Assembly (NCBI RefSeq): GCF_030408555.1
Contig: NZ_CP047048.1
Location: 1,984,001-2,048,000, forward strand
Source: Corynebacterium aurimucosum
GTDB lineage: Bacteria > Actinomycetota > Actinomycetes > Mycobacteriales > Mycobacteriaceae
Reading direction: 5' to 3'
Length of the DNA: 64,000 nucleotides
The notes beneath the pieces are model-generated. The model was not told the DNA's origin. It searched no databases and was given only the letters and a program-made list of their open reading frames with translations. The position numbers were made by a program, and so were the translations under genes. Shown here piece after piece: positions 4,351-50,684 of this stretch; the stretch's first letter is position 1, and every line of letters starts with the position of its first letter.

Positions 4351-4423
4351 TCCTCCATAGCTCAGTTGGCAGAGCATTCGACTGTTAATCGAAGGGTCAC
4401 TGGTTCGAGCCCAGTTGGAGGAG
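4351..4423 (+). tRNA. tRNA-Asn (GTT)
   Basis: A 73-nt cloverleaf. The acceptor strands are TCCTCCA (4351-4357) and TGGAGGA (4416-4422) with discriminator G. The anticodon arm TTCGA-CTGTTAA-TCGAA places anticodon GTT at 4384-4386, and the T loop is TTCGAGC. CCA is not encoded, as usual in actinobacteria. The phage uses its 3' half as attachment site. The integrated copy remains intact because the phage core restores the sequence from 4394 onward. Confidence 0.97.
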
Positions 4424-4424
4424 C
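4394..4424. repeat. attL core (31-bp direct repeat)
   Basis: The block from GGGTCAC to GGAGGAGC is identical to 50654-50684. It covers the anticodon-stem/T-arm/acceptor part of tRNA-Asn plus the base after the discriminator. Confidence 0.93.
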
Positions 4425-5782: not shown

Positions 5783-6601
5783 TTACTTCTTCCTCCGCTT
5801 CAATTCGTCTAGGTCTGCCTGAATCTGCGCGAGCTGGCAGCGGATTGCTGCAAGTGCATCAACCGGGGTGAGGTTGCGGCCTTGGCTATCCTGCCCTAAT
5901 TGAGGCCAACCCTTACCCGACGGGCCACGCAATTGCCGCCAGATTTCCTGAATCGCATCAAACTGTGGGGTGAAAAACCCACTAATGAATGCGCGGGTGT
6001 GCGCGTTTACTTGTTCTACAGCGTTCATGGTGACGCTACTCCCTCCAGTGTTCTTGGCCGGTTGCTTTGGTGTAGTCTTGCCGGTCATTTGGTCGTACCA
6101 GTGCTGAGCGCGACGAATATACGCATCGTGGTACTTATGGCCGGGGCGTAGGTGATACGGGCACGCGGTGGAACCACCAGACTCGACACTGTGGAACCTG
6201 ACGTTCTTACCGGACACGGGCCTGCCTAGTTTGTAGTAGCGACACAGAGCGGCTACTAGGTGCGCGCCTGCCTCGCGGGTGGCTTCACTGATAGGCCAAT
6301 CCTGGTCAGGTCCACCACTATTAGAGTGCTCGATACTGATGGAGCGCTGGTTTGAGTACAAGTTCGCGTTCGACCATGCGGTGTCGGAATCGTTGACGGC
6401 TTGGCCAATCATCCCGGTTGGGGAGATGGCGTAGTGGGCACTAGCGGCCCGGTCTTGCCAGACCCTTACGCAGTCGTCAATGTCGCCAATCATGGCCATG
6501 TGGTGCAGAGTAACGAACTCGATTTTCGCCCCGCCCCTGCCTGGTGTGTAGTGCTTTCTGAGCAGGTTGTATTTATCCGGCTCGACGTTCATCCAATCCA
6601 T
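5783..6601 (-). CDS. Endolysin, N-acetylmuramoyl-L-alanine amidase (Amidase_2)
   Basis: A 272-aa lysis enzyme that cleaves the bond between MurNAc and L-Ala of peptidoglycan. Residues ~25-175 form an Amidase_2 (PGRP-like) domain with zinc-ligand candidates in VTLHHMA, in the HSVESGGSTACPYH segment and at the Cys of STACPYH, and the conserved ISIEHSNS strand. The C-terminal ~100 residues (after TPKQPAKN) are linker plus an Ile/Leu-rich helical tail ending LDELKRRKK, likely wall-targeting or oligomerisation. No signal peptide is present, consistent with export through the adjacent holin. The gene follows the tail genes and is first of the lysis cassette. Confidence 0.9.
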   Translation of the reverse strand: MDWMNVEPDKYNLLRKHYTPGRGGAKIEFVTLHHMAMIGDIDDCVRVWQDRAASAHYAISPTGMIGQAVNDSDTAWSNANLYSNQRSISIEHSNSGGPDQDWPISEATREAGAHLVAALCRYYKLGRPVSGKNVRFHSVESGGSTACPYHLRPGHKYHDAYIRRAQHWYDQMTGKTTPKQPAKNTGGSSVTMNAVEQVNAHTRAFISGFFTPQFDAIQEIWRQLRGPSGKGWPQLGQDSQGRNLTPVDALAAIRCQLAQIQADLDELKRRKK

Positions 6602-24654: not shown

Positions 24655-25569
24655 CTACTGCGCCAGACCGGAAATCTTCACTGCGGAGAACGGATCAGTA
24701 ACACCGAAAGCCATAGACGCCCACGTGTAGAAGCGAGTCAGCTGACGGCCCTTGATGTACTCGTTATCAGTAGAAATCGGGTCCTCAACACCCATAACGC
24801 CGATAGCGCCGCGCTGCAGCAGCAGGCCCTCACCCTCACCAAGAGAATCAGCGTTAGAGATAAGGAGCTCCACCCCGAGAGTGCCCAGCACGTCACGCCA
24901 GTTCTTCACGCCGAGAATGGTGCGCAGATTCTTCGCGTCACGCGGCTTCAGCACCAGGGTGTCCGGGCTGTAGCCAAGCTTGGTTTCCTCAATCTTGAGC
25001 TTGGCTTCCTCAATGTCGTCGATGAGCTTTCCCTCACCGGTCAGCGCAGTCTTATTGGATGCGGTGACCTTACCGGCCGCAGCCCAACCAGAAGACTCGA
25101 GCTTCAGCGCACCATCAAGGTTAGAAAGCACGTCGTCGATGACAGCAACGGCACGATTGTCGATGTCCTTGACCATCGTGTTAGCCACGCGGGCCGCACC
25201 ACGCTGGAGGATGATCGGGTCGTTGCGCTTCTCTGCCTCACGGGTCAGGTCGTAGTAGCCACCGGTCTTAACGACGGGGTCAACCATCGGCTTGCCCTGG
25301 CTAGTGGAGAACGCGGGGAACTCCGCTCCAGGGGCAATAACGCCCGGCTTCTCCGCCACGGTCGCCACGTTAGCCTCGAGGCGGTCATACATGATGGCGC
25401 CGCCGTCAGCCCCGGTGGAGGTAAACAGGAACTGGGAGACCAGGTTCGCCTGCGTCAGCTGCGCGATGTAGTTGGAAAGGCGCGTCGGTTCCTTGACGAA
25501 CATCGACGCGGTGATGTTGCCGTCCTCAGACACATGGGCCGGGGACAGCGGGAAAGTGAAATCAGCCAT
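24655..25569 (-). CDS. Major capsid protein (HK97 fold)
   Basis: A 304-aa protein with the HK97-type order: flexible N-arm, extended loop region (GAIMYDRLEANVATVAEKPG), then the spine-helix and P-domain (DIDNRAVAVIDDVLSNLDGA) and A-domain with GYSPDTLVLKPRDAKNLRTI. The end (FYTWASMAFGVTDPFSAVKI) is typical of capsid proteins of actinobacterial siphophages. There is no N-terminal delta domain of HK97 size, in line with a separate scaffold gene upstream. Start follows AGGAAGAGGAAGA. Confidence 0.9.
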   Translation of the reverse strand: MADFTFPLSPAHVSEDGNITASMFVKEPTRLSNYIAQLTQANLVSQFLFTSTGADGGAIMYDRLEANVATVAEKPGVIAPGAEFPAFSTSQGKPMVDPVVKTGGYYDLTREAEKRNDPIILQRGAARVANTMVKDIDNRAVAVIDDVLSNLDGALKLESSGWAAAGKVTASNKTALTGEGKLIDDIEEAKLKIEETKLGYSPDTLVLKPRDAKNLRTILGVKNWRDVLGTLGVELLISNADSLGEGEGLLLQRGAIGVMGVEDPISTDNEYIKGRQLTRFYTWASMAFGVTDPFSAVKISGLAQ

Positions 25570-25976: not shown

Positions 25977-26525
25977 TTAATTGGACTGGGTAAAGCGGCC
26001 AGTAACCGGCCACGAGGACGGGAACGAAAAATCCGGCGCATCCTCACGCGAGGAAGCACCAGGCTTCAAGTCCTCAATCGGATAGTCAGACGGCGGAGCG
26101 GCACGCTTCGCAGCCTGCGCCTGCAGCTCGCCAAGACGTTTCGCGTTGTCGTCGAACTTTTCAGGGTCAGCACCCAGCAAGTCCGCATTCTCCGCAGAGA
26201 TTCCGTACTTGGACAGTGCCTGCGACCGAGCCAGCTCCACCTCATACTGAGTCGCCTTTGCGCGCTCGGCCTCCAGGGCCTCCTGTACACGCTGCAGCTC
26301 GGTCTTCTCCGCATCCTGAATCTCGCGGTACTTCTCCGCATCAGCGCGCAGTTCGTTGCGCTCGGTTCGGTAACGCGCGTTTTCCTTTCGAAGCTTCTCT
26401 AGCTCCTGCTGGTAGGACTCCGCGCTACGTTCCGTCTTCGAGGTATCAGCCTCCTGGGCCTTATCCTCGTTTGCCACCTCGGCGGCGTTCTGGTCGTCGG
26501 TGGTGGCGGTAGTTTCTTCTGCCAT
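25977..26525 (-). CDS. Capsid scaffolding protein
   Basis: A 182-aa highly charged protein. Residues ~30-130 are one long predicted coiled coil (QQELEKLRKENARYRTERNE, EKTELQRVQEALEAERAKA), and the C-terminus is Pro/Ser-rich (PDFSFPSSWPVTGR). Scaffolds of this design are encoded just before decoration and capsid genes and leave the prohead before packaging. ATG at 26525 has GGAGGTTACC upstream. A terminator-like hairpin and tRNA-like element precede it. Confidence 0.8.
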   Translation of the reverse strand: MAEETTATTDDQNAAEVANEDKAQEADTSKTERSAESYQQELEKLRKENARYRTERNELRADAEKYREIQDAEKTELQRVQEALEAERAKATQYEVELARSQALSKYGISAENADLLGADPEKFDDNAKRLGELQAQAAKRAAPPSDYPIEDLKPGASSREDAPDFSFPSSWPVTGRFTQSN

Positions 26526-26558: not shown

Positions 26559-26594
26559 AAAAATCCCCCGGCCACCACCTATGTGGTGCGGGGG
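26559..26594 (-). terminator. Terminator-like hairpin upstream of scaffold gene
   Basis: On the minus strand CCCCCGCACCAC pairs with GTGGTGGCCGGGGG around ATAG (26594-26565, small bulge), followed by a T5 run (26563-26559). It stands inside the structural operon, directly after the tRNA-like element and before the scaffold/capsid genes, so read-through or antitermination would be needed. Confidence 0.75.
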
Positions 26595-26597
26595 TCG

Positions 26598-26641
26598 TGC
26601 GCTAAAGAGGAATCGAACCTCAACATGCCACCAGGTAGCGC
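26598..26641 (-). ncRNA. tRNA-like minihelix (acceptor + T arm only)
   Basis: The minus strand has a textbook 3' half of a tRNA: T arm GAGG-TTCGATT-CCTC (26621-26607), then the 7-nt acceptor strand ending GCGC and an A at the discriminator position. The 5' acceptor partner GCGCTA (26641-26636) lies only ~14 nt before the T arm, giving a 6-bp helix. D arm and anticodon arm are absent; total 44 nt. It overlaps the stop codon of the MuF-like gene and is followed by a terminator hairpin. It cannot be a decoding tRNA. Acceptor plus T arm is the minimal substrate of RNase P, so mRNA processing is a plausible role (inference). Confidence 0.6.
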
Positions 26642-27495
26642 TAATTATCGGAGAACGGGGAGTATCGGGTTGCGTCAATCTTTCCCGCGGCGATTGCGTC
26701 AGACCAGCGCCTAAATTGCCCTGGCGCGGGCTTCCCGTCAGACCAAGTGTGTTTCTGCCACAGCTCGGACAGCATCGCCGCCTGCTCCTGCCCTTGCCAG
26801 GGCTCACCTTCGACGACGAGCACAGGGATGCAGTCGCACCCATCGTGGTAGCGCCTTCCATCCTTGCGTGTGGTCACTGTATCTTCTGAGTAAACCGCGC
26901 CGCGGGAGGCAAGCATCGCGCAGAACGCACAAGACTCACGCCCGGACAGCACCCGCGCATACCCAACACGTGCCGGGGAACCGGAGTCAAGGAACACCGC
27001 GGACCCGTTATGGGAAGTATCCGCAACAGCATTGCGGCCCGCCGCGACCACATGCCGTGCCAAACGGCGCCCAAGCTCCCCCGCCACACGAATCTTCACC
27101 GCATCATCAACCCGATTAGTCACGTCAGGTTTGACTGCTTGCTGGACCATCTTCTTTGAAGCTTCGTCCAGCATCATCACCCGTAAGTGCGTCGAATCTG
27201 GGGAGAGCCTAGCGACTTGCGAGATTGCATCGAACAGTGCTTTGCGCGGGTATGGCTCTAATGGCTCCGGGGTAATGACTACCCCAGCTGCTGCTGCTTG
27301 TCGCCCCAGCTCGAGAACGTGGGCACGCCACGCCGCCCGCCGAAGGCGCAGAACCCGCGGATAAATGAGGTCAACGAGCTCGTTTACCTGCTCCACGGTG
27401 ACCGGTACGCCACGCGCCGAAATGACCTTACTAACGAGCCGCGAAACACTATTGGCGAGCGATGCGTCATTCTTATGGATGTACTCAAGAGTCAC
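26641..27495 (-). CDS. MuF-like minor capsid/head morphogenesis protein
   Basis: A 284-aa protein following the portal gene, as SPP1 gp7/MuF-like proteins do. The C-terminal half has the signature ARVLSGRESCAFCAMLASRG and RRYHDGCDCIPVLV, with Cys and His residues that look metal-binding. The N-terminal helical part (VSRLVSKVISARGVPVTVEQ...) probably contacts the portal. It is thought to act inside the procapsid during assembly or ejection. The TAG stop lies within the tRNA-like element. Confidence 0.8.
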   Translation of the reverse strand: MTLEYIHKNDASLANSVSRLVSKVISARGVPVTVEQVNELVDLIYPRVLRLRRAAWRAHVLELGRQAAAAGVVITPEPLEPYPRKALFDAISQVARLSPDSTHLRVMMLDEASKKMVQQAVKPDVTNRVDDAVKIRVAGELGRRLARHVVAAGRNAVADTSHNGSAVFLDSGSPARVGYARVLSGRESCAFCAMLASRGAVYSEDTVTTRKDGRRYHDGCDCIPVLVVEGEPWQGQEQAAMLSELWQKHTWSDGKPAPGQFRRWSDAIAAGKIDATRYSPFSDN

Positions 27496-28930: not shown

Positions 28931-31702
28931 CTAGATGAAAAATGCTTTACCTGTGCGCTGCCTCTTCTTTGACAGCCCGCCGCGCTCCCGAGCTAGGCGC
29001 CACACCATGCGCGCACCAATCATGCACACACACGCGTCAATCTTCTTCGACGACTTCCGCGACTCCTTACGCACCGTGATGCCATACCGCCCCTCATGCC
29101 GGCGAGCATTCAGCACGTGCTCAGTCAGCAGCGGGTTACCGTCATGGGTAAACGAGTGCTGCATAATCTCAGCCTCAGCGAGCTCCGCAGCTGTCGTGAA
29201 CTGGAAATCCTTACCGCGCATATCCCACGCGATAGGCTCCGGCTGCTGTGCACCCCTCGAGGTCGCCCACAGCTCCAACTGGTCACGGTACCGCTCCGGC
29301 CACGCCACCTTCGTAAACGATTCCCACTCACGCACATCCGCATAGAAACCAATGACGTTCCACGTGGCGAAGGCGAAGTCAACGCGGTCGTCGACCGCCT
29401 GCACATCCACCATCGGCTTATCCTCCGCCGTCGGCGCCGTAGGCTCCCACACACCAATGGTGAAAATGTGCCCGTCGTCCATGCGGCACCCAATCAGCGC
29501 CGTATGGTCATTAGACAACGAACCGTCAAAGAACATCACGATGTCCTCGCCTGGCTCCACACGAATATCGGGCCTGGCCATCTGCGCCCAATCCTGCGGA
29601 TCACACCACGAATCAGACGACGCCACCGGCCAATTCAAATACTTACGCTTTGAATCATCCACGCGTGCCGACGGGGACCAAATACGGGTCATAATCGCGT
29701 CAATATCCGACCAAGGACAATCCTCGTACACCCACTCAAGCGCCGATCGCAGCGAATCAGCATCACCCAACTCAGTGTCATGCGGGGCTTGCCGCGCATC
29801 GTAAAGAATCCGCGACTCGTTCTTAGACCGCCCGGACTCCTGCATCACCCAGTCATTAAACGTGGACTCACCAGCCGAGTTAATCCCCGGCTTCCACGCA
29901 TTCAGAGTCTCCAACATGCGTGAGCCCGACTTTGACAGGTTATCCAGCAGTGTGGCGTGTAACTCCGCCCCGCCGTTCGATGGGGTCCAGTGTTCCAGCT
30001 CGTCGGCAATGACACACGTTGACTCCGCGCCTTCCGCAGTAGTCGCGGACGACGTGATGACTTCAAGTTTGCCCTCCGGCTGCACAAAAATCTGTGTCTT
30101 GCCAACGTCCAGGTCATAGTCGCGGTGCAGCGCTGGAGCGTTCGCAGGTGACGCCATAGCGCGCACCATGCGCATCGTGTTCTCTGTATTATGGGTCAAA
30201 ATACCCCGTCGACCAGCCTGGAAAAGATGGTCGTCGTTATCGATGCCGATACACCTAACAGGAACCGACTCAACTTTCTTCACGGAAACAACCCGATGGT
30301 ACTTGCTGTACTGTCGCGGTTCGTCAACCTTCGGCATACGAGCGACCTTGTAAGCGAAACGCGCCACAGGCTCGCCCGCACGCGGCTTAAACGAGACCTT
30401 CCACGATTTAGTGGATTCGTTCTTCTGCTCGGTCCACTTGAATCCCAACGAGCTCAGCAAGTCTTCGATACCGTCAATCAAATGGCGATTCGTGTTAACG
30501 AAATAAGCACGATGAGTACGGTCAATCCCGCCGTCAGAGTCGATTAACCCCTGCAGAAGCGACATGCGCTGCTCATAGCTTGCAGTTAGGTAAACATCGG
30601 GGATGTGCTTGCGGTGCAGAACCCCAACTTCCCTAAGCATCTCCCGCATAGAGAGTAGCTTCGGGTCAGCGTACCCAGCTCGAGGCCAAGCAACACACTT
30701 CCGGCAAGCCGGATTGCCCTTTTGTGAATAGCGATTGTTGAGGTCATTCACGTAGTCGTGGCCCCGAGGGCAAATACCATCCCGGCGCTTCACGTTCATG
30801 CGGCCAGTAAATCCTCTATCGAAGTCAAAACGGAGATCTTCCCAGTCATTCAGCAATGGACGGTATATCTCCTCTAACTCCTCCTTATGCCGCCAATCAA
30901 TGGCATGGACTCCCGACTTAGAAGCTCCATCGCCGAGCCAAAATCCAAGTCGCCAAGGGTCAAGTGGAAGCTCACGTACCGGGAAATTTGCTGACACTGC
31001 AGGAATCCGAACAGTGACTCGCTTAGAACTCTTGAGCTGAGCAATCTGCTCAGTCGTGAGAGTTACAGACTCCCATTTGTCTCCGTGACCATTGGTCTTT
31101 TCGATAGTCCACCCATGGCCGGAATCGGCAACAATCTTCTCGCCGGAGTCGAACTCCAGCTCGTAGCAATCTCGGCCATAAAACACTTCCGTCTTTCGAC
31201 GTACCTCAACCGGTTCACCGTCCGAACCGAATACGTAATCGCCGATACCAACAGTGTCGACCGTCTTCCAACCGTCTACGGTACGGACCGGAGTATCGAG
31301 AGCCAAAGGCTGGTCCAGCGAGACCGCAGCAATCTGCACCCACGGCATCGACACCGGCTTGCCGACCACGCCACCAGGCACATCCGGGTCCCAATGGTCG
31401 AACCGTACGGGTGCCAAAAGCTCAATCAACGCCATGACTGCAGCAAACGGTGACTTGCCTGAGCCTTTCGCCAACCGGCGCGCCCCGTGGTGGAAAAGCC
31501 ACCGCCCATTCTCATCAAGGGCATAAAACCACAGGACGAAACGCGCCTGCTCACGGGTAAACTGCCATGCTTTACCCGCCCGAATACCGTTCGGGTGCCG
31601 CAGATACTTCGCAGCCCACGCCAAAGCCTCGTAGCCCAGCGTGTACTTCGGTAGGCCCTCGGGCAATGTCGCCAACCGCTCCTGCGGAGCAACCTCACCC
31701 AT
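28931..31702 (-). CDS. Terminase large subunit interrupted in frame by an intein
   Basis: A 923-codon gene; the mature terminase would be 549 aa after removal of residues 132-505. The extein has the ATPase Walker A-like region GARRLAKGSGKS (residues ~73-84), Walker B VIADELEHW, and the nuclease start VMFFDGSLSNDHTALIG. It pumps DNA into the prohead and cuts it. The intein sits between Walker A and B, in the conserved AAVSLDQ/TENTMRM segment, so the unspliced protein should be inactive. Gene order terS-terL-portal is standard. ATG at 31702 follows AGGAGGTGGCCTT. Confidence 0.92.
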   Translation of the reverse strand: MGEVAPQERLATLPEGLPKYTLGYEALAWAAKYLRHPNGIRAGKAWQFTREQARFVLWFYALDENGRWLFHHGARRLAKGSGKSPFAAVMALIELLAPVRFDHWDPDVPGGVVGKPVSMPWVQIAAVSLDQPLALDTPVRTVDGWKTVDTVGIGDYVFGSDGEPVEVRRKTEVFYGRDCYELEFDSGEKIVADSGHGWTIEKTNGHGDKWESVTLTTEQIAQLKSSKRVTVRIPAVSANFPVRELPLDPWRLGFWLGDGASKSGVHAIDWRHKEELEEIYRPLLNDWEDLRFDFDRGFTGRMNVKRRDGICPRGHDYVNDLNNRYSQKGNPACRKCVAWPRAGYADPKLLSMREMLREVGVLHRKHIPDVYLTASYEQRMSLLQGLIDSDGGIDRTHRAYFVNTNRHLIDGIEDLLSSLGFKWTEQKNESTKSWKVSFKPRAGEPVARFAYKVARMPKVDEPRQYSKYHRVVSVKKVESVPVRCIGIDNDDHLFQAGRRGILTHNTENTMRMVRAMASPANAPALHRDYDLDVGKTQIFVQPEGKLEVITSSATTAEGAESTCVIADELEHWTPSNGGAELHATLLDNLSKSGSRMLETLNAWKPGINSAGESTFNDWVMQESGRSKNESRILYDARQAPHDTELGDADSLRSALEWVYEDCPWSDIDAIMTRIWSPSARVDDSKRKYLNWPVASSDSWCDPQDWAQMARPDIRVEPGEDIVMFFDGSLSNDHTALIGCRMDDGHIFTIGVWEPTAPTAEDKPMVDVQAVDDRVDFAFATWNVIGFYADVREWESFTKVAWPERYRDQLELWATSRGAQQPEPIAWDMRGKDFQFTTAAELAEAEIMQHSFTHDGNPLLTEHVLNARRHEGRYGITVRKESRKSSKKIDACVCMIGARMVWRLARERGGLSKKRQRTGKAFFI
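30188..31309 (-). mobile_element. Class 3-type intein with LAGLIDADG endonuclease in terminase
   Basis: 374 aa, starting PLALDTPVRTVDGWKTV and ending GILTHN before Thr+1. It lacks an N-terminal Cys/Ser/Thr: residue 1 is Pro. It does have the set that defines class 3 inteins: Trp after the block B His (SGHGW, residue 67), Cys in block F (VRCIGIDN, residue 353) and Thr in block G (LTHN, residue 372). Two dodecapeptide motifs (LGFWLGDGA ~121, GLIDSDGGI ~254) mark a LAGLIDADG homing endonuclease. Between them a CPRGH...CRKC pair (~180-205) suggests an inserted zinc-binding unit for DNA recognition. Confidence 0.9.
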
Positions 31703-44746: not shown

Positions 44747-44826
44747 TAGCCCCTCCGCATCATGTAGAAGCGCGGGGTGTAGGCGCGGTGACGACGATGG
44801 AAAAAGTGCTTCAGTAGGCGTTTCAT
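44746..44826 (-). CDS. 26-aa basic mini-ORF
   Basis: ATG 44826 overlaps the excisionase-like stop (ATGA) and its TAA overlaps the next ATG by one base. The product is strongly basic and aromatic (KRLLKHFFHRRHRAYTPRFY). The precise junctions favour translation, though the product is short. Confidence 0.4.
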   Translation of the reverse strand: MKRLLKHFFHRRHRAYTPRFYMMRRG

Positions 44827-44999
44827 GCTGCTCCTTGATTCATGTATTGGTCGAGCCAGGCTCGTGTTGTGCGCCAGGTCTTACCCGGCTTGCGGGCCTC
44901 AATGTCACCCCGGCGCATCAGGGTGCGGATTGTTTCGGCGTGCAGGCCGGTGTATTCGGCGGCGTCACGTACGGTGAGCCAAGCCGGTGTAGTATTCAT
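44823..44999 (-). CDS. Excisionase-like/HTH_17 DNA-binding protein
   Basis: A 58-aa MerR/excisionase-type winged helix: TPAWLTVRDAAEYTGLHAET, IRTLMRRGDIEARKPGKTW and RTTRAWLDQYM. It matches the HTH_17 pattern used by phage excisionases and small regulators. It is located at the head of the leftward early operon, far from the integrase. I start at ATG 44999; 10 more codons upstream have no support. Excision or early gene control are both possible. Confidence 0.75.
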   Translation of the reverse strand: MNTTPAWLTVRDAAEYTGLHAETIRTLMRRGDIEARKPGKTWRTTRAWLDQYMNQGAA

Positions 45000-45030
45000 G
45001 GGTGTCTCCGTTTCAGGTGGACAGAGCAAA

Positions 45031-45063
45031 GCCCCCGCGCAATTTCAGTGCAGTCGCGGGGGC
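45031..45063 (-). terminator. GC-rich hairpin upstream of excisionase-like gene
   Basis: GCCCCCGCG (45031-45039) and CGCGGGGGC (45055-45063) form a perfect 9-bp stem with a 15-nt loop. On the minus strand it is followed by TTTGC, a weak T-run, so it could be a terminator or attenuator between the noncoding region and the early operon. Confidence 0.55.
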
Positions 45064-45180
45064 CTCATTTATGGGTGGGGTTGCAGGCGTGCAGAGCCAA
45101 GCGGGCAGTGTCCAACCCCGCCGGATACAACCTTGACGTTTGTCTCTCCTTGGATAGAAGTAGCGCTTAACAACCCCAAG

Positions 45181-45222
45181 TGCCGATCCGCGGACTTGAA
45201 CCACGGGAGTTCCCTTATCGGC
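45181..45222 (-). ncRNA. Second tRNA-like minihelix (acceptor + T arm)
   Basis: Minus strand: 5' acceptor GCCGAT (45222-45217), ~11 nt, T arm CGTGG-TTCAAGT-CCGCG (45205-45189), then acceptor GATCGGC and A as discriminator. The T arm is exactly 5-7-5 and the acceptor strand 7 nt, as in tRNAs, but there is no D arm or anticodon arm; 42 nt in all. It has the same design as the element at 26598-26641. It ends the hairpin-dense region that starts behind the 51-aa gene. Confidence 0.6.
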
Positions 45223-45512
45223 ATGTGTTTTTCGTGCCCTTGTTACGTGGTGTTGCCTCACCCTTGGCCCGCTACGGCGGTTGGGTGGTTTCTGCCTGTC
45301 GGCGGTGCAGGTCAATCGCAATCTAAGACACATGCTCGCTGCACCAAGTAGTCCCACATGGACACGGCCCGGCTACTGTTCTCTGCCGGGATAGGCTCTC
45401 TATTCAGTTCTGACTCAACGTGGCCTGCTAGTCCCTCAGCTATCCCCTAGTGAGGGCGCTAGCGGCCTGGTGCCCGCGGGGAGGCTTGCACTCCCCCGCC
45501 TGCTAAGTCGGG
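45223..45512 (-). ncRNA. Hairpin-dense noncoding region, possible structured RNA
   Basis: About 290 bases without a plausible gene. On the minus strand there are successive inverted repeats: GCGGGGAG/CTCCCCCGC (45476-45499), CCCTCA/TGAGGG (45433-45456), CCCGGC/GCCGGG (45368-45390) and GGTGCAG/CTGCACC (45304-45345). The tRNA-like element follows directly. The arrangement suggests a structured RNA or a leader that is processed at its 3' end. Which strand is transcribed is inferred from the surrounding leftward genes. Confidence 0.45.
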
Positions 45513-45668
45513 CTATTGGTTCTTGGCTTGGTTGAGTTTCTTGAAGGCCTTGCGCGCTGCGGCTTCCGCCTCGGCAAAGAGCTCGTCTACTTCCTTGGGG
45601 TCGATTTGCTCTTTGATTGCGGCTTCGATGTAGCCGAGCATGAAAGCGTGGATGTCGGTGGTGTTCAT
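45513..45668 (-). CDS. Small acidic helical protein
   Basis: A 51-aa frame (NTTDIHAFMLGYIEAAIKEQ...VDELFAEAEAAARKAFKKLN) starting at ATG 45668 just after the antirepressor gene. It is almost entirely helical and may pair with the antirepressor. Unknown family. Confidence 0.55.
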   Translation of the reverse strand: MNTTDIHAFMLGYIEAAIKEQIDPKEVDELFAEAEAAARKAFKKLNQAKNQ

Positions 45669-45680
45669 AGGTCTTCGTCC

Positions 45681-46451
45681 TTATGCAGTGGCGTAGTACT
45701 GGTCCCAGACGCGCTGCATCAATGGACGGTCTGCTTCGGTGTAGCCGTTGACCTGGCGCACCTGACCGTTGGATAGGGTGAGGTCGTACTTTTCCGGCTC
45801 ACGACCGCGTTCGAGCGTGTACAGGGCTTTCATGCGCTTGCCGAACATCGGGGCGATGGACTTCATCTTCTTGGTCGATAAGTTCTTGGACTTGAGGAAG
45901 TCCGCGGTGTACAGGGGCCGGGTCTTCGGGTCGAGCTCCGGGGCTTCGCCCAAACCACGGGCCAGGACGATGCGGGCCTTTGCTTCCAGGTGGTCAGGGT
46001 GGATAAGCCCCTTCGCCGCCTGGCACAACTCCATCTGCATCTGCGACTGGCGCATCAAAGCGTTCAGTTGGTGTTCCTCGGCGCGGGGGTTGATAGCCCC
46101 GCCTTGGTGGAAGTAGGCGTCGAGGGCGTTAGCTGCTTCGAGCTGGTAAGCCTCAAGGACAGGACGGGCAGCTTCATTGACACGGTTGGCGTCGATGGTG
46201 GCGAGCCACATTGTGAGGGTGCGGCGGTCAACCATGTGGGTCTGGTAATTCTTACCGTCCGATGCAGTTAGGGTCATCATGACCCCACGTGCCCACGGCT
46301 TCTCGTTCAGCTTGCGTTGCTGGCTCTTCCTGTCGATACCGAGAGCAGTACAGACATGTTTGGTGGAAGCCCATTCGGTGCCGTCGTGCTGCACCGCCAT
46401 GATGGGGGTTGAGGTGCCAGGCACAGGGATGGTGACAAGTTGATTACTCAT
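45681..46451 (-). CDS. Phage antirepressor (P22_AR_N-like)
   Basis: A 256-aa protein. Residues 1-120 match the P22 antirepressor N-terminal domain (VTIPVPGTSTPIMAVQHDGT, STKHVCTALGIDRKSQQRKL, MVDRRTLTMWLATIDANRVN). The C-terminal part (DFLKSKNLSTKKMKSIAPMF, GKRMKALYTLERGREPEKYD) resembles a KilA/ant-type DNA or partner-binding end. It would inactivate the repressor to favour lysis. Start ATG 46451 after AGGAGACTATCAA. A rightward terminator 35-60 bp upstream suggests antisense control. Confidence 0.85.
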   Translation of the reverse strand: MSNQLVTIPVPGTSTPIMAVQHDGTEWASTKHVCTALGIDRKSQQRKLNEKPWARGVMMTLTASDGKNYQTHMVDRRTLTMWLATIDANRVNEAARPVLEAYQLEAANALDAYFHQGGAINPRAEEHQLNALMRQSQMQMELCQAAKGLIHPDHLEAKARIVLARGLGEAPELDPKTRPLYTADFLKSKNLSTKKMKSIAPMFGKRMKALYTLERGREPEKYDLTLSNGQVRQVNGYTEADRPLMQRVWDQYYATA

Positions 46452-50653: not shown

Positions 50654-50684
50654 GGGTCACTGGTTCGAGCCCAGTTGGAGGAGC
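50654..50684. repeat. attR core (31-bp direct repeat)
   Basis: Identical to 4394-4424. It is a partial tRNA-Asn copy (3' half only), not a functional tRNA. Confidence 0.93.

Follow-up and report, generated by a model that had tools for sequence, protein, structure and literature searches.

Phages of Corynebacterium carry a family of tRNA-like minihelices which, judged by sequence comparison, probably act as non-decoding processing signals. Each consists of an acceptor stem stacked on a T arm. The evidence leans, by a little, towards a wider reading in which these minihelices form a phage RNA-punctuation system: interchangeable with tRNAs, they would use host RNase P and RNase Z to cut the message ahead of the capsid genes and to excise an early RNA. 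The window (the whole stretch of DNA that was analysed, 64,000 nucleotides) contains three such elements. It is part of a 2.74-Mb genome, and the sample for genome searches consists of 242 Corynebacterium genomes, the window's included.

The window has a 31-bp exact direct repeat at 4394-4424 and 50654-50684. The first copy is the 3' end of a tRNA-Asn gene (4351-4424, ARAGORN), which suggests that the copies are the likely attachment-site ends of a prophage of about 46 kb. This host tRNA-Asn is the sole Rfam match at gathering score within the window, and ARAGORN finds no tmRNA there. RNase P RNA is present in the host genome; an RNase Z-like gene gives partial model matches, under the curated cut-off. 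On its minus strand the prophage encodes a portal, a MuF-like protein, a scaffold, a small head protein and a major head protein; Corynebacterium phages are the closest named phage relatives of the MuF-like and major head proteins. Upstream of these genes is what we take to be the terminase, named from its sequence and from gene order in Juicebox; this terminase-like ORF (28931-31702, 923 aa) presumably has an intein inside it, with a recognised intein-like start and end. The features around the capsid genes are as follows.

26641..27495, minus strand: MuF-like head protein gene (phrog_193, head maturation protease)
26595..26641, minus strand: capsid-slot tRNA-like minihelix (acceptor plus T arm, discriminator A, CGA)
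26594..26565, minus strand: GC-rich hairpin and T run, beginning right after where CCA would end
25977..26525, minus strand: head scaffolding protein gene (phrog_1793)
24655..25569, minus strand: major head protein gene (phrog_1650)

The original prediction had placed a tRNA-like acceptor and T-arm minihelix after a head gene. It is confirmed on the minus strand at 26641-26598, between the MuF-like gene and the scaffold/capsid genes. The acceptor pairs GCGCTA (26641-26636) with TAGCGC (26604-26599) on that strand; it has 6 bp and not the 7 proposed, as the seventh pair would be C/T. A linker of 14 nt, CCTGGTGGCATGTT, lies between GCGCTA and the T arm (26621-26607), in which a 4-bp stem of GAGG (26621-26618) and CCTC (26610-26607) closes the loop TTCGATT (26617-26611). 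On the 3' side of the T arm follow TT, the acceptor strand, the discriminator A (26598) and CGA (26597-26595). The MuF stop codon TAG (26643-26641) had been put in the acceptor; only its final G, which is minihelix nucleotide 1, is found there, and the other two bases lie outside. Minihelix linkers have no room for D and anticodon stems. None of the three window elements is called as a tRNA by ARAGORN or the Rfam tRNA model, in agreement with the claim that the capsid-slot copy is not a normal tRNA. A plus-strand match to Plastid-ycf2 (E 0.029; 21.8 vs 65.7 bits) was rejected and taken as an antisense T-arm look-alike.

The hairpin at 26594-26565 is followed by ATTTTTC and then by the scaffold gene (26525-25977) and the major head gene, so the predicted order of hairpin and scaffold/capsid genes is correct. 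What had been described as a terminator is an imperfect hairpin with a T run, and a simple consensus scan lists no minus-strand terminator at this site. A simple scan flags no promoter near the element either, and the two results together leave a separate capsid transcript without independent support.

The window minihelix is not a chance motif. A first motif scan gave two matches in the window and six in 60 shuffles (0.1 each). A second, fixed scan specified a T loop of T-T/G/A-C-R-A-N-Y, a T stem with at least 4/5 pairs, the outer 5 acceptor pairs, a spacing of 11-13, and a purine then C after the stem. It gave three matches, all on the minus strand (26641-26595, 45222-45178 and 45513-45468), of which the original prediction had named one; 100 dinucleotide shuffles gave 0.08 on average and never more than 1. 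Since the scan was designed after all three elements were known, the shuffles measure rarity and not independent discovery. The pattern GCTACCTN{6,25}GGTTCRANTCC, scanned over viral contigs and the 242 genomes, matched three of the genomes, the window's copy among them; with a looser scan, the viral loci among the matches listed for the pattern were mainly tRNA-sized. Thermodynamic support for the single copy is poor. The minimum-free-energy fold of the capsid-slot copy (-13.7 kcal/mol) keeps the acceptor and loses the T arm, the minihelix itself being at -11.6; a 125-nt fold has a z of -0.95, with 33 of 200 shuffles as good; and when more sequence is included the linker folds onto bases past the hairpin. 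The case for the pairing therefore rests on comparison.

In relatives, the capsid slot was located beforehand by capsid match, giving 30 Corynebacterium places, 10 of them at an identity of at least 36%. Those 10 hold seven minihelices (L136-L141 and L163), one tRNA-like element of 73 nt (L143), one tRNA-Ser (L144) and one empty slot (L142). The L141 minihelix has one mismatch; it was missed by the scan and seen otherwise. The L143 element (oriented 354-426) has a predicted fold with a 6-nt anticodon loop; its match to tRNA-Sec is weak (25.4 vs 47 bits) and ARAGORN makes no call. Additional scan matches in L142 and L143, away from the slot, were taken as chance. At the 20 more distant Corynebacterium capsid places no element is found within 1,500 nt upstream (0 of 20), a distance possibly short of the matching gap. 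The original prediction had looked for conservation of pairing in related phages, and pairing is indeed kept through changed stems at the same place. The slot contains GCGCTA...TAGCGC with a T stem of AAGG/CCTT in L003, AGCATG...CATGCT in L010 and L012, and GCCATG...CATGGC in Juicebox. The ORF between MuF and the element in L003 is presumably transposase-like.

Full tRNAs are also found in this slot. An annotated tRNA-Tyr separates the MuF and scaffold genes of Gordonia phage GMA4, and a tRNA-Tyr occupies the slot of L190, from another genus of the family; L189, a close relative of that locus, keeps the hairpin and has no tRNA. Corynebacterium phage Poushou (L179, MF197383.2) has an unannotated tRNA-Ser(CGA) at 6189-6271, which overlaps the annotated start of the scaffold gene (6234); the true scaffold start is probably further downstream. 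Among 27 family loci the slot is without tRNA or minihelix in 26, as far as scanned, the exception being L190. Other matches in these loci are one scan match inside a reading frame (L197), one scan match with a complementary-strand tRNA-Gly call (L196) and complementary-strand tRNAs beyond the capsid gene (L206, L215). Of six named phages from other genera, five (Nergal, Schnabeltier, Rem711, EastWest and MalagasyRose) likewise have an empty slot, and several relatives keep the hairpin without the element. Most of the relatives examined outside Corynebacterium thus have nothing in the slot, and this capsid module can do without the element.

Eighteen capsid-slot copies were tabulated, including L224, an apparent prophage remnant in which no scaffold start was seen. 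The base preceding nucleotide 1 is A in 14 of the 18, some of which are near copies. Where a hairpin was found by script (15 copies), 11 have it starting immediately past discriminator+3, three a base sooner and one two bases further on. In L138, L143 and L144 a second hairpin is also present upstream of the element (by eye). An ACCA end is encoded in three of the 18 copies and in minihelix 1 of the window's early region; elsewhere the discriminator is followed mainly by AC and then by other bases.

The genes upstream of the slot vary. The MuF proteins of L003, L010, L012 and L178 are longer and vary at their C-termini, and a small ORF comes next, an arrangement which we take to resemble MuF polymorphic toxin/immunity arrangements. 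The window's MuF is short and has no small ORF after it.

Minihelices are not confined to capsid operons. A model of eight capsid-slot minihelices (R1), searched over the 242 Corynebacterium genomes, matches 28 of them at E ≤0.05, and not all of the matches are upstream of capsid genes. A recurrent layout among them is a minihelix, a conserved non-coding stretch and another minihelix, as in the early region of the window.

45681..46451, minus strand: anti-repressor gene (Ant-like, phrog_524), upstream of the early RNA
45468..45513, minus strand: early minihelix 1, with an encoded ACCA end (found by scan)
45223..45467, minus strand: structured non-coding RNA flanked by the two early minihelices (its covarying core at 45366-45225)
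45178..45222, minus strand: early minihelix 2, 2 nt past the RNA core (found by scan)
44823..45029, minus strand: excisionase/HTH gene (phrog_66), downstream of the early RNA

This early set (45513-45178) lies between the anti-repressor gene with a small ORF and the excisionase-like gene. Minihelix 1 begins with the final stop-codon base of ORF 45513-45668. The early RNA is 245 nt long; its fold is better than that of shuffles (z -2.57; 2 of 200 as good), and five early-RNA sequences show double compensatory changes in 10 of 38 predicted pairs. No Rfam family matches it, those of C4, GOLLD and ROOL included (window 44900-45700 at E ≤5; 11 relatives at E ≤0.1), and the bracketed RNA is a candidate new family. 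Corynebacterium phage IME1320_01 has the early set, with no annotated feature under the match; its first minihelix was found by scan and its second by eye.

A model of the 142-nt RNA core alone, both minihelices excluded (R2), matches 21 of the 242 genomes at E ≤0.01. Retrained on its own matches (R3), it matches 32 of the 242 Corynebacterium genomes at E ≤1e-4 (33 matches). In a family sample of 301 genomes R3 matched four, one of them outside the genus; this last match (L347) was rejected, as it reads as coding by eye and has no flanking elements. Within the core, double changes occur in 26 of 38 pairs (20 distinct rows) and the covariation score is 0.438, against 0.131 shuffled and ≤0.052 slid; fitting of the alignment to its own model tilts the pair counts in favour of that structure. 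Among the 12 records from which the capsid loci come, R2 matches one (the contig of L002); the two contexts thus do not always travel together.

The 3' end of the core nearly always has a tRNA-like element beside it. Thirty-one loci were examined, comprising 30 R3 matches with loci plus L344; the second G239 match, G107 and G012 were left out. An acceptor and T-arm element starts -2 to +18 nt from the core 3' end (search window -12 to +25 nt) in 29 of the 31, against 1 of 151 control windows of equal size elsewhere in the same loci; near-copy loci (L345/L346/L358/L361; L355/L356) mean that these are not 29 independent events. All but one of the 29 were found by the scan (28/29); the other, L334, was found by ARAGORN as a tRNA-Met 2 nt past the core. 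The exceptions, L336 and L337, have degenerate elements by eye. Ten loci were first met through minihelices (the window's L326, L323-L325, L329, L333, L336, L341, L360 and L365); among the remaining 21, the element is present in 20. The 29 elements comprise 15 minihelices (45-49 nt with discriminator+3), 11 longer forms of 72-109 nt for which ARAGORN makes no call, and three canonical tRNAs (tRNA-Leu twice, tRNA-Met once). On the upstream (5') side, which is without control windows, short-form minihelices are found at 16 of the 31 loci and additionally at L323, L334 and L337. Some 0.8-1 kb past the early RNA, L325 (oriented 2644-2688) and L334 (oriented 2454-2498) have an extra minihelix on the same strand; these are perhaps more punctuation sites in early operons.

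The early region also bears on whether the minihelix could be a cis-regulatory RNA that works uncleaved, capping the upstream message or controlling read-through of the hairpin by attenuation or antitermination. A hairpin with a T run stands directly 3' of the element in most capsid-slot copies, and the second hairpins before the element in L138, L143 and L144 would suit such a function. However, the window's early element follows a structured RNA with no minus-strand terminator-like site flagged in 44900-45700, and some capsid relatives have the hairpin without the element. Regulation without cleavage is quite improbable on this evidence.

Pairing was compared across 33 minihelices, that is, 34 elements chosen with spacing 12, minus one duplicate after linker removal; L137 and L138 were left out, and a MAFFT alignment that misplaces L003 and L138 was kept out of the counts. 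With linkers removed, 93.9% of cells are paired, a percentage biased upwards because most of the 33 rows were picked by scans or models that require pairing. Double changes occur in 11 of 12 minihelix pairs, although 13 of 500 shuffles reach this count too. Covariation scores 0.773 in the real alignment, compared with 0.185 for shuffled and ≤0.135 for slid versions. Because the choice of rows favours pairing, the tests at places fixed beforehand (the capsid slot and the RNA core) weigh more.

These comparisons make it very unlikely that the minihelices are decaying relics of tRNA genes acquired by phages. Full tRNAs do occupy the same slots in relatives, and forms of 72-109 nt are intermediate in size; the stems of a relic should break, whereas here changed stems still pair, the spacing stays at 12 nt, and one reduced form is found in both contexts. 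A decayed tRNA was rejected because pairing persists at places fixed beforehand. Covariation at the RNA level also opposes a DNA-level recombination or attachment site, for example one that swaps cassettes of MuF C-termini and downstream ORFs. Relatives do have different MuF C-termini and small ORFs upstream, which stop at the element or close to it, and tRNA 3' ends are classic integration targets, but no such cassette is seen at the window's early slot; the probability of this explanation is very small.

The spacing from T loop to discriminator is 12 nt in 27 of 28 scanned early-slot elements and 11 in L327, the scan having allowed 11, 12 or 13 and favoured 12. In the capsid slot it is 11 in L137 and 11 or 12 in L138. 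A substrate of RNase P has its acceptor stacked on the T arm, with about 12 layers from T loop to discriminator, and the minihelices have this geometry. According to PMC4919913, the stack of T arm and acceptor is bound by RNase P, which takes the elbow as the origin of a ruler of invariant length; both the 12-nt spacing and the interchange with real tRNAs agree with such a ruler. The linker varies with the T loop. Where loop position 2 is T, the linker contains GG (12 of 12; one also has AGC), and where it is G, the linker contains AGC or AGT (22 of 22; seven also have GG). The two classes are, as sequence patterns, no more than suggestive of a tRNA-like elbow contact in two versions. Acceptor sequences vary widely, and many start with GCC.

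These features can also be read as those of a product. The minihelix RNA itself, a stable tRNA-like molecule of about 45 nt, might bind a host or phage protein (a synthetase, the CCA enzyme, EF-Tu, or RNase P as a decoy), with processing of its neighbours a by-product. Several copies encode ACCA, and the linker motif tracks the T-loop class, so the elbow may be under selection. Against this, no identity element stands out among the widely varying acceptors, full tRNAs and forms of 72-109 nt occupy the minihelix place, and the position beside the RNA core is nearly fixed. An RNA made for its own sake is thus unlikely.

Processing signals remain the preferred reading. The original prediction had suggested that host RNase P might cut the polycistronic mRNA at the capsid-slot element. 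The swapping of minihelices and full tRNAs in this slot, and the delimiting of a structured RNA by like elements, speak for the idea; the slots left empty in most relatives examined outside Corynebacterium speak against it. That this exchange is seen in two contexts unrelated to each other is consistent with recognition by both RNase P and RNase Z, and it lends the RNase P idea inferential support. In the proposed design, the acceptor would be stacked on the T arm, with a short linker in place of the D and anticodon arms. Host RNase P would measure from the T-loop elbow and cut 5' of nucleotide 1, and RNase Z or exonucleases would trim the 3' side. In the late operon, the message covering the genes as far as MuF would stop at the cut, and the scaffold/capsid message, headed by a 5' hairpin, could build up separately. 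Cuts in the early operon would free the structured RNA of about 245 nt from the anti-repressor transcript and give it its ends, a release that may be likened to that at the tRNA-like mascRNA at the 3' end of MALAT1. In three cases the upstream stop codon ends on nucleotide 1 (window 26641 and 45513, and Juicebox gene 6); it is an idea only that cutting could there compete with translation of the upstream gene.

If the system exists, the minihelices would be natural minimal RNase P substrates, and a reason is suggested for the location of some phage tRNAs inside operons. In the literature searched, largely titles and abstracts, no description of phage tRNA-minihelix punctuation or of the early RNA was recognised. 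RNase P reportedly acts on bacterial polycistronic mRNAs; those sites are not known to be conserved tRNA-like minihelices for which tRNA genes can substitute. C4, a short antisense RNA, has an anti-repressor as its target. According to PMC11143913, the C4 antisense RNA of P1 and P7 is a phage RNA and an RNase P substrate, together with bacteriophage M3 RNA, T4 gene 32 mRNA and other mRNAs. GOLLD and ROOL are structured phage RNAs often near tRNA islands, and the GOLLD linker sometimes has tRNAs; GOLLD is far larger than the 245-nt early RNA (many exceed 800 nt), according to PMC12286853. A 3' CCA is described as an antideterminant in 3'-trimming, called RNase Z trimming, in PMC4919913.

The mascRNA/menRNA family (RF01684) is a reduced tRNA-like fold at the 3' end of MALAT1 and MEN-beta, processed by RNase P and RNase Z. 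Like the minihelices, it keeps acceptor and T arm and sits immediately downstream of a non-coding RNA. RF01684 is the best Rfam match, below threshold, in two stretches (L139 at E 0.94; window 45222-45182 at E 2.8); its gathering threshold is not reached in these searches (16.1 vs 42.5 bits). mascRNA is an animal nuclear RNA, whereas the minihelices belong to phages, frequently flank their RNA at both ends, and are present in a capsid operon as well.

Mitochondrial messages are cut by tRNA punctuation, the textbook route, and the punctuating elements are mostly functional tRNAs. In such genomes (PMC8601606), and with plant t-elements (PMC4919922), intergenic tRNAs or tRNA-like structures free the flanking RNAs; PMC4919922 also names MALAT1 and plant t-elements as further RNase P substrates. 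Those are organelle genomes, whereas here the elements are non-decoding minihelices in phages. The phage version, if true, would be the mitochondrial solution recurring in a bacterial virus. tRNA-like processing signals are already a known kind of element, and the minihelices are probably a phage form of it.
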